33,333 nt of DNA. Origin: a virus. The position numbers and the translations under genes are program-made. The notes under the pieces were generated by a model that made no database searches, was not told where the DNA came from, and saw only the letters and a list, made by a program, of their open reading frames with translations. Location of the stretch: the IMG/VR virus record IMGVR_UViG_3300028800_001007, positions 1-33,333 of that record; one strand, written 5' to 3'. The first letter of the stretch is position 1. Every line of letters begins with the position of its first letter. Below are positions 10,408 through 12,783 of the stretch, piece by piece.

Positions 10408-11037
10408 ATGAAACCAGGCGAGGCAGCTCAGCAGGCCAGTGATGTTGCTGGTGAACGCATCCGGATAGCCCGTGAGAGACGGGGCTGGTCGCAGGCGCAG
10501 CTAGCGGCAGCATGCGCGACGGCTGGTGCGCCAGAGCTAACCAAGCAAGTGGTCGGCACGATCGAGCGCGGGCGGCGCAGTAAGGACGGCACCAGAACCC
10601 GGCTGCTCACCGTGGAGGAGGTGATCGCGTTCGCGGCCGCGCTGGCCGTTCCGCCGGTGTGGCTGCTCACCCCGCTGCATCAGCGGACTTCGGTGAAGGT
10701 GACCGAGACGAGGGATGCGCTTGCCCCGTACGCGCTTGAGTGGTTCATCGCCGACGAGGTCGCGCCGCCGTGGAACCCGGGCGCTGCTGATCTCAGGTCG
10801 TGGCGTGACGCGCGGGCCGACGTGATCCTGGTCCGTGCTTACATGCGGGCGGTTGCGAACATCCGGGACCTGATGCGGGCCAGCGCGGGTGTGCGCGCTG
10901 CCGTGGGGGCTAAGGCGGTCGAGCGGCTAGAGGCTGCGGAGGCGGCGTTGTGGGCGCGGAGCCTGGTGCCGGCGGAGCTGCCCGGCGATGTGGCCGACCA
11001 GGCCGCCGCGTGGAGCGCGAACGTCAGCGCTGAATAA
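10408..11037 (+). CDS. XRE-family helix-turn-helix repressor
   Basis: 209 residues from ATG 10408. GERIRIARERRGWSQAQLAA and TKQVVGTIERGRRSKDGTRT make a Cro/CI-type HTH in the first 80 residues. The C-terminal 120 residues are helical (YALEWFIADEVAPPWNPGAA) and may serve dimerisation; no RecA-type self-cleavage motif is apparent. An upstream in-frame GTG at 10360 would overlap the leftward promoter. No clear ribosome site is seen, so leaderless translation is possible. Lying between two promoters that share one operator, it is the obvious lysogeny repressor. Confidence 0.85.
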   Translation: MKPGEAAQQASDVAGERIRIARERRGWSQAQLAAACATAGAPELTKQVVGTIERGRRSKDGTRTRLLTVEEVIAFAAALAVPPVWLLTPLHQRTSVKVTETRDALAPYALEWFIADEVAPPWNPGAADLRSWRDARADVILVRAYMRAVANIRDLMRASAGVRAAVGAKAVERLEAAEAALWARSLVPAELPGDVADQAAAWSANVSAE

Positions 11038-11066
11038 ATTCGGAATAAATTCGGAATTGATTCGGA
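11034..11066 (+). repeat. Three tandem 11-bp iterons (left block)
   Basis: ATAAATTCGGA, ATAAATTCGGA, ATTGATTCGGA in direct tandem right after the repressor stop. The same three-repeat array appears in inverted orientation at 12751-12783. The array is AT-rich against a GC-rich background. Confidence 0.9.
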
Positions 11067-11104
11067 GGGTGCTGGGACATGTTTTCGCAGGTCACAGCAC
11101 GATT

Positions 11105-11140
11105 CCGGATTAATTTCTTTAATTCGGGGACTTCTGCGGA
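11105..11140 (+). repeat. 36-bp motif, left copy of inverted pair
   Basis: Begins CCGGATTAATTTCTTTAATT and ends GACTTCTGCGGA. An exact reverse complement lies at 12655-12690. CGCAGGTCA at 11086-11094 is also mirrored at 12712-12720. With the iterons it forms a composite block of about 110 bp flanking integrase and attP. The motif contains its own small palindrome, ATTAA-TTTCT-TTAAT. Confidence 0.9.
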
Positions 11141-11268
11141 CCTGGGAGGAAATATTTTCCTTAGTCCTCTTAGAGCCGATGTCCGTTTTGTCATAGTATG
11201 TCCCACTCAAGCTTCCTTCTACTACTAGCTAGGCTTCTCTGCTTCTAGAGTGCTGAAACGGGCAAATC

Positions 11269-12441
11269 ATGACGGTTTATGACAAGTGGCACAAGACCCA
11301 TCCCCTTGCTGCTGAAGTTCGTTGCAGCGATCACCGGAAGGTGCCCACGGCCGGGCACGGCAGAGGGAAGCGGTGGCAAGTCCGCTACCGCGACGAGGCA
11401 GGCGCGCAGAGGTCCCAGAACTTCGACCGGCAAGGTGACGCGCAGCAGTTCGACGCGAAAGTCCAGCGCGAGCTGGCGACGGCCGGTTACATCGACCCGT
11501 CGGCCGGCAAGGTGACCGTGGCGGATTACGCGCTGGGCCGGTGGCTGCCCGCGCAGTTGCACCTGCGGCCCAACTCGGCGGAAACCTACCGGCTGCACCT
11601 GCGGACACACATCGTTCCCGCGATCGGCAAGCGCCCGCTGTCGTCACTGCGGCGGCGCGACATGGAATCGCTCGTCGCGGCGTTGTCGGCCAGCCTCGCG
11701 CCGTCCACCACCGGGACGGTGTTCTCAGTGCTGCGGGCAATGCTCGGCGCGGCGGCTGATGACCGCCTGATCGCGGTCAACCCGTGCCAGAGGGTGAGGC
11801 TGCCGCGCGTCGAGAAACGCGTCGTCGTGCCGCTCCCCCGCGATCACGTCCTGGCGCTCGTGCGCGCCATGCCGGGCCGGTACCGGCTGGCCGTAGTTCT
11901 TGCAGCGATGGCAGGACTCAGGGAAGGTGAGGCGCTCGGGCTGACCGTCCCCTGCGTGGACTTCCTGCGCCGCAGGATCAAGGTCCAGCGGCAGTCTCAG
12001 GGCCGGGAACTGGCGCCGCTGAAGACCAGGGCGTCGATGCGGACGGTCCCGGCCGACGACATGGTCCTGACGGAGATCACGGAGCACATGCGGGCGTTCC
12101 CGCCGGGTGACCATCAGGTGATCATCACGGCACCGGGCGGGCGTCCTCCGGGGCGGTCGGCGTTCGGGGATGCGTGGCGCGGCGCGGTTGCTGCGGCCCC
12201 GCGTGTGCCGAAGGGCACGCACTTCCATGATCTGCGGCACTTCTACGCGTCGGTGCTGATCGCGGCGAACCTGAATCCGAAGGTGATCCAGTCGAGGCTC
12301 GGTCACGCGACGATCTCGGAGACGATGGACACCTACGGGCACCTGTTCCCGGACTCTGAGGAGCTTGGCCGGGGGACGTTCGACACCCTGTTCCGGGACG
12401 CTGATGTGCACGGATTGTGCACCGGCAAGACGGGGTCCTGA
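11269..12441 (+). CDS. int: Tyrosine recombinase integrase
   Basis: 390 residues with the full domain plan: an arm-type DNA-binding N-terminus (RWQVRYRDEAGAQRSQNFDR), a SAM-like core-binding domain (about 80-175) and a catalytic domain. The catalytic set is complete: Arg218 in AGLREGEAL, Lys252, His320 and Arg323 in HDLRHFYASV, His346 in RLGHATI, Tyr356 in TYGHLF. It would recombine attP with the host site. ATG 11269 has only a weak ribosome site. It is followed within 30 bases by an rnpB-like attP core. Its C-terminus overlaps the first GTGCAC pair. Confidence 0.95.
   Translation: MTVYDKWHKTHPLAAEVRCSDHRKVPTAGHGRGKRWQVRYRDEAGAQRSQNFDRQGDAQQFDAKVQRELATAGYIDPSAGKVTVADYALGRWLPAQLHLRPNSAETYRLHLRTHIVPAIGKRPLSSLRRRDMESLVAALSASLAPSTTGTVFSVLRAMLGAAADDRLIAVNPCQRVRLPRVEKRVVVPLPRDHVLALVRAMPGRYRLAVVLAAMAGLREGEALGLTVPCVDFLRRRIKVQRQSQGRELAPLKTRASMRTVPADDMVLTEITEHMRAFPPGDHQVIITAPGGRPPGRSAFGDAWRGAVAAAPRVPKGTHFHDLRHFYASVLIAANLNPKVIQSRLGHATISETMDTYGHLFPDSEELGRGTFDTLFRDADVHGLCTGKTGS
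12406..12425 (+). repeat. GTGCAC pair, site 1 (exactly 200 bp from site 2)
   Basis: GTGCAC-GGATT-GTGCACCGG inside the 3' end of the integrase gene. It shares all but a few central bases with 12606-12625. The two sites bracket the putative attP core, so they may bind integrase or excisionase. Confidence 0.6.
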
Positions 12442-12469
12442 TGTCGGCGCAGGTCAGCGAGCGGGCGGT

Positions 12470-12501
12470 GGGTGAGCCGGCCTGTAGGCCGGGTTCTGTT
12501 A
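12470..12501 (-). other. attP: Putative attP core: 3' end of rnpB (RNase P RNA)
   Basis: Read on the minus strand the stretch begins TAACAGAACCCGGCCTACAG and continues GCCGGCTCACCC. ACAGAA followed by CCCGGC and a pyrimidine-rich TACAG/GCC run is the conserved last segment of bacterial RNase P RNA (the 3' strand of helix P4 and the terminal stem). Only this end is present, not a whole gene. Such a gene-end fragment 28 bases after an integrase stop is what an attP that restores its target gene looks like. Exact core borders cannot be set without the host. Confidence 0.7.
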
Positions 12502-12605
12502 CCCCCGGTTCCGGGGCCTGCGGGGGTTCCAAACTGGTACTCGAAACAGGCACCTTGACGTGCATCAACCTGTGTCTATCTGTTCCGGGCTGGCGTCACC
12601 CTGTT

Positions 12606-12625
12606 GTGCACGCGATGTGCACCGG
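12606..12625 (+). repeat. GTGCAC pair, site 2
   Basis: GTGCAC-GCGAT-GTGCACCGG. Partner of 12406-12425 at an offset of exactly 200 bp, on the far side of the attP core. Confidence 0.6.
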
Positions 12626-12654
12626 GCTTGACCCGGTTCCCTGGGGGCCAGGAT

Positions 12655-12690
12655 TCCGCAGAAGTCCCCGAATTAAAGAAATTAATCCGG
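12655..12690 (-). repeat. 36-bp motif, right copy of inverted pair
   Basis: Exact reverse complement of 11105-11140. Confidence 0.9.
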
Positions 12691-12750
12691 TCGGCCCGCC
12701 GAAAGTGCCGCTGACCTGCGGCGATGCCGCGCCTTCAGGCTGCCCGGGCG

Positions 12751-12783
12751 TCCGAATCAATTCCGAATTTATTCCGAATTAAT
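12751..12783 (-). repeat. Three tandem 11-bp iterons (right block, inverted)
   Basis: TCCGAATCAAT, TCCGAATTTAT, TCCGAATTAAT: reverse complements of the left iterons in mirrored order, with one changed position in the last unit. They lie 40 bases before the rightward promoter. Confidence 0.9.

Follow-up and report, generated by a model that had tools for sequence, protein, structure and literature searches.

The lysogeny module of the virus described here raises the question of why two near-identical composite repeats in mirror orientation bracket its integrase gene (int) and attachment site (attP), and which protein would bind them. The analysed window of 33,333 nt is the whole IMG/VR record IMGVR_UViG_3300028800_001007 and originates from a temperate actinobacterial siphophage with genes for a portal, a ClpP-type protease, a terminase, a major head protein, a tape measure and tail proteins. 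Its ends are formed by a terminal repeat of 459 bp (1–459 and 32875–33333, five mismatches), so that the unit is 32,874 bp, circular or permuted, with variants present in the sample. Searches with the int, FtsK, XRE and helicase proteins revealed no near phage relative in the collections searched, and the tail protein gave matches of about 35% to phages of Streptomyces, phiSASD1 among them. The genome also includes a perfect 19-bp hairpin with a 4-nt loop at 5648–5689, probably a terminator; a small ORF (6048–6287) with a putative GntR-type DNA-binding domain, judged by eye, and CGCAGGTCA located 21 bp upstream of its start; and a 66-bp direct repeat (6294–6359/6434–6499, 83% identity, spacing 140 bp) among short genes.

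Organization of the lysogeny module

The features of the module are listed in Table 1. The gene for an HTH_17 protein (−) is followed by PL (−), XRE (+), the left block, int (+), attP, the right block, PR (+), DUF2637 and FtsK-like genes. The part from XRE to FtsK (10408–16530) has the same order as conjugative-type actinobacterial integrative elements (locus L099), and the phage appears to be mosaic with an element of this kind.

Table 1. Features of the int-attP region; positions refer to the 33,333-nt window.
Feature	Position	Strand	Remarks
HTH_17/MerR-like small protein, 69 aa	10057..10266	-	candidate excisionase (RDF) and regulator; first gene behind PL
PL (predicted)	10321..10375	-	TTGACA-N17-TAAAGT + leader GGCTACAGATCGACACCGAAC; outermost left mirror element
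XRE-type repressor gene	10408..11037	+	HTH_3/HTH_31; phage repressor PHROGs
Left iterons	11034..11066	-	three tandem 11-mers: ATAAATTCGGA, ATAAATTCGGA, ATTGATTCGGA
CGCAGGTCA of left block	11086..11094	+	
Left 36-mer	11105..11140	+	
AT-rich leader before int	11141..11268		presumed int promoter region
int, tyrosine integrase	11269..12441	+	Phage_integrase; family found beside rnpB in Actinobacteria
Left integrase arm-type pair	12402..12424	+	GATGTGCACGG/ATTGTGCACC; 11-bp period, inside int 3' end
CGCAGGTCA of attP	12448..12456	+	puts GGTCA at -29 from rnpB core
attP core	12469..12512	-	copy of RNase P RNA (rnpB) 3' end
Right integrase arm-type pair	12603..12623	+	TTGTGCACGCG/ATGTGCACC; +125 to +145 from core, like relatives
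Right 36-mer	12655..12690	-	identical to left 36-mer, inverted
CGCAGGTCA of right block	12712..12720	-	
Right iterons	12751..12783	+	three tandem 11-mers, strand opposite to left iterons
PR (predicted)	12823..12877	+	TTGACA-N17-TACTGT + same 21-nt leader; outermost right mirror element

The outermost mirror pair (10321–10345/12853–12877) lies outside the blocks. PL (leftward, 10375–10325) and PR (rightward, 12823–12873) have in common TTGACAC, a 17-bp spacing, a TANNGT box and the exact 21-nt leader GGCTACAGATCGACACCGAAC. Their hexamers are consensus matches, and both predicted promoters point outward; the module thus resembles an immunity region of the lambda type, in that two early promoters flank the repressor, int and attP. 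The common leader is likely the operator of the XRE repressor. At roughly the corresponding positions of the Planomonospora element, another motif (CGCAAC/G) is repeated, which is a weak parallel.

Structure of the composite blocks

The preliminary description of this region claimed that mirror-image composite repeats bracket int and attP, and this was confirmed: the two 36-mers are identical (36/36), the iteron tracts match at 33 of 34 positions, the orientation is inverted and the 36-mers are 1514 bp apart. The first 23 nt of the 36-mer consist of an inverted half-motif pair, CCGGATTAA-N5-TTAATTCGG, followed by GGACTTCTGCGGA, whereby each 36-mer contains two inverted copies of the half-motif of the iterons. 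With up to one mismatch allowed, the half-motif CCGAATTAA occurs 10 times in the whole window and every copy is inside the two blocks, six in the direct arrays and four as inverted pairs within the 36-mers. The spacers between the parts are unrelated in sequence, and their lengths in the left and right block (19/30 and 10/21) differ in both cases by exactly 11 bp, so that the helical phase is kept and the parts would stay on the same helix face. Judged from the sequence, unrelated spacers with 11-bp differences argue for protein binding sites under selection. The 11-bp rule also adds weight to the earlier proposal that it is the motifs, rather than the spacers, on which selection acts. The blocks had also been called AT-rich; this holds for the left block (GC 0.44 compared to 0.66 for the genome), while the right block has 0.55, with 0.29 in its iterons alone.

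An inverted-repeat scan of the whole 32,874-bp unit, with partners within 6 kb, recovered the block pairs (scores 36 and 31), an alternative register of the iterons (18), a third nested pair (22) and nothing else. In ten order-3 Markov simulations of the same scan the top score was 18, and nine of them contained no pair at all. The 36-bp, iteron and promoter-leader pairs all nest around int-attP. The element CGCAGGTCA is also present at 12448 beside the attP core and in several other places, and is thus not specific on its own: outside the blocks and attP it was found at six places of the genome (terminal repeat counted once), and genome-wide 10 occurrences were observed against 0.36 expected in shuffles. 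As a genome-wide signal, it proved unexceptional among frequent 9-mers once codon-scale composition was allowed for. A stem-loop of the 36-mer as a structured strand was likewise discarded as weak (z = −1.5).

Attachment site and integrase family

The integrase relatives in Actinobacteria directly adjoin rnpB, and in many of them the whole rnpB gene then follows. Among the 67 integrase loci collected (a few fetched twice), the rnpB core was present just downstream of int in 39, and in 28 of these 39 GGTCA precedes the core by 28–30 nt, compared to 29 nt in the phage. The 11-bp arm pairs of the relatives (GGAACAGNNNNGGAACAG or GATGTGCCCCCGATGTGCCC) are positioned at about −70 and +125 from the core, and those of the phage (GATGTGCACGGATTGTGCACC and TTGTGCACGCGATGTGCACC) at −75 and +125; the left pair occupies the same position as the GATGTGCCC or GGAACAG pairs of the relatives. 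Against Rfam RF00010 the attP core stays below the gathering score, as only the rnpB tail is present. By its core, GGTCA offset and arm pairs, the attP belongs to an rnpB-specific tyrosine integrase family, and the recombination site, at approximately 12400–12625, is thus complete and lies inside the bracket.

The composite blocks are, on the same comparison, apparently no part of the recombination site of this family. Actinobacterial rnpB elements (for example the Planomonospora element, L008/L099) are similar to the phage in integrase family, rnpB core, arm spacing and the gene order XRE-int-att-DUF2637-FtsK. However, they have no composite blocks, and their XRE gene abuts int. Composite blocks were absent from all examined relatives with the rnpB integrase, and the iteron triple from all 67 int loci. 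The pattern of the iteron triple was found neither in viral contigs nor in 394 genomes of the class Actinomycetes; the palindrome pattern gave four AT-rich chance matches in viral contigs, all without iterons; and no comparable mirror repeats were present at four other actinophage integrase loci. The preliminary description had named functional relatives lacking the repeats as the finding that would speak against a role for them, and the relatives next to rnpB, which have no blocks, come close to it. Moreover, since the family-typical arms lie inside the bracket at the spacing of the relatives, the blocks are not canonical integrase arm sites, as had been proposed among other possibilities.

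In some genomes, the rnpB integrase family (loci L106–L165) forms tandem insertions, for example with three att copies in Planomonospora contig G001:C11. Five viral contigs (L101–L105) have a 34-bp near-match to the rnpB tail, without a relative of the phage integrase; a different recombinase may serve them, or they may include flanking host DNA. No description of rnpB as an integration target was found in the open-access literature searched.

Origin of the left block

In ten relatives with a recognizable XRE neighbor, the XRE stop is within about 25 nt of the candidate int start, either abutting or overlapping. In comparison, the XRE-int gap of the phage is 231 nt long and contains the left block, the first iteron of which overlaps the XRE stop codon. 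The XRE proteins of the phage and the relatives are 28–31% identical, which is similar to the 29–36% found among the relatives, and int identity is 52–67% throughout. The XRE is thus about equally distant in all pairs, which indicates common descent of XRE and int; the left block was either acquired between the two genes or lost in all other relatives. Together with the abutting arrangement in the relatives, this points to the left block as a derived control region lying between co-descending genes. The 110-bp stretch with the highest AT content in the genome, at 11150, falls within the leader of int. An int promoter was not located, the promoter search yielding only PL.

A candidate ligand: the HTH_17 protein

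We tentatively favor, with somewhat less than even confidence, the explanation that each block is a copy of the same composite operator and that the ligand of the 11-bp array is most likely the excisionase-like HTH_17 protein. The protein matched Pfam HTH_17 with 40.8 bits and the PHROG 'excisionase and transcriptional regulator'. Only two PDB sequences matched, RdfS (8dgl) and Pukovnik Xis (4j2n), both weakly, and RdfS was also the top Foldseek match of the low-confidence structure model (pLDDT 62.5). The array itself resembles an RDF operator as far as sequence can tell, having at least three direct repeats of about 10–11 bp in a genome that encodes an excisionase-type HTH protein. The HTH_17 protein is preferred as ligand since such directionality factors polymerize along direct repeats a helical turn apart and require about three sites, since Apl and RdfS provide a precedent, and because of its PDB and fold matches. 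The operator reading keeps part of an earlier suggestion, that the blocks are operators of the XRE repressor, but with the HTH_17 protein as the first candidate ligand of the iterons and the 21-nt leader as the likely XRE operator.

Excisionases bind tandem repeats one turn apart; for Apl of phage 186, which is encoded by the first gene of the early operon and acts at att and at early promoters, the minimum is three adjacent sites (PMC7498355). The phage arrangement is similar in having direct repeats one helical turn apart, at least three sites, and sites at att and early promoters, and HTH_17, like Apl, is an HTH protein encoded first in an early operon. In 186, however, one array is located between convergent promoters and one in attP, without an inverted palindrome in the site, whereas in the present phage int-attP lies between two mirror-image composite arrays with a predicted binder. 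RdfS of ICEMlSymR7A binds attP and its own promoter and regulates and stimulates int expression (PMC11963761). RdfS and Pukovnik Xis are the nearest solved relatives of the HTH_17 protein; RdfS has no apparent consensus motif, while the motif in the phage blocks is strict and duplicated. In KplE1, the integrase gene intS is controlled by recombination proteins at the integrase promoter (PMC2951348), as would be the case for int in the proposed system, albeit attL overlaps the int promoter in KplE1 and the phage attP is downstream of int, with a separate block.

According to this model, the HTH_17 protein, produced first behind PL, would bind the three head-to-tail 11-bp sites of each block and thereby control int and early transcription, possibly also excision. 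The left block, located where int is no longer coupled to the XRE gene, would regulate int. The iterons of the right block, which is located between attP and PR, end 39 bp ahead of the PR −35 box; this block would regulate PR and/or take part in shaping the attP complex, and the two copies might co-operate across int-attP. Several points speak against it. Excisionases usually tolerate a poor sequence match, whereas the sites in the blocks are almost the same; a filament of head-to-tail units does not account for the inverted pair in the 36-mer, so that a dimeric protein or an initiator may come into play; the distance from the left block to the attP core is about 1.4 kb; no int promoter was located; the model of the candidate ligand has low confidence; and, with respect to the genes that follow them, the two blocks have opposite orientations.

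Alternative explanations

The main and strongest rival of the operator, albeit rather unlikely in our estimate, is a bipartite replication origin, in which the blocks are iteron clusters for the primase-helicase or another initiator. Initiator monomers would occupy the direct repeats, dimers the inverted pair, and the AT-rich left spacer would unwind. Initiators of iteron plasmids are known to work with direct iterons combined with an inverted pair of the same half-motif, and the blocks have both; the iterons adjoin the AT-richest region of the genome, and a winged helix is predicted at the C-terminus of the primase-helicase-like protein, with pLDDT mostly in the 70s there. Two separated iteron regions (ori1 and crr) and a primase-helicase with a DNA-binding tail are also known from phage P4, although the P4 regions are not mirror copies flanking int-attP, and any relation of the phage helicase to P4 alpha would be hypothetical. 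Iteron-plasmid repeats, however, are usually about 20 bp long and spaced by two turns, as opposed to 11 bp here. Furthermore, no initiator family match was recognized in the phage, a locus with a related primase-helicase (L092) showed no comparable repeats, and the GC skew tracks the gene strand, giving no usable signal for an origin.

Accessory recombination sites, to which Int and/or Xis would bind remotely and so set the direction of integration or excision, appear quite improbable. Both blocks and attP have CGCAGGTCA in common, GGTCA near the core is kept in relatives, and the right block begins 32 bp past the right arm site. Yet all family-typical arms lie between the blocks, the rnpB-adjoining relatives have no blocks, the left block is remote from the core and CGCAGGTCA recurs elsewhere in the genome.

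Slightly more doubtful still are operators of the XRE repressor or of the GntR-like protein (6048–6287), with a loop connecting the two copies. Phage switches commonly use pairs of distant operators, and the palindrome of the 36-mer would suit a dimeric repressor. Against this, PL and PR already have another element, of 21 nt, in common as the obvious XRE operator, and tandem 11-mers are unusual for XRE dimers. Finally, mirror orientation with differing internal spacing, as at the ends of Mu or Tn7, would suit an int-attP cassette moving or inverting as a unit, an earlier suggestion that is now very improbable, given the common descent of XRE and int, the lack of a transposase or invertase inside and of a target duplication, the differing flanks, and no empty or inverted version in the viral contigs or genomes searched.

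Implications

A further idea, as doubtful as the preceding repressor operators, is that the blocks act as a pair to sense the integration state. In the circular phage, where they are 1.5 kb apart, a bridge between them could enclose int and attP in a loop. As attP lies between the blocks, recombination there would move them to the two ends of the prophage, about 31 kb from each other, and the loop would be broken. If this is true, the expression of int and/or PR would respond directly to whether the phage is integrated, through DNA geometry and not through a diffusible repressor alone.

Overall, one integrase family, present in a phage and in conjugative-type actinobacterial elements, repeatedly sits beside rnpB. 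Should the blocks form a paired operator around int-attP, they would be moved apart by integration itself, and the phage would thus be a compact test case for the coupling of integration state to gene expression.
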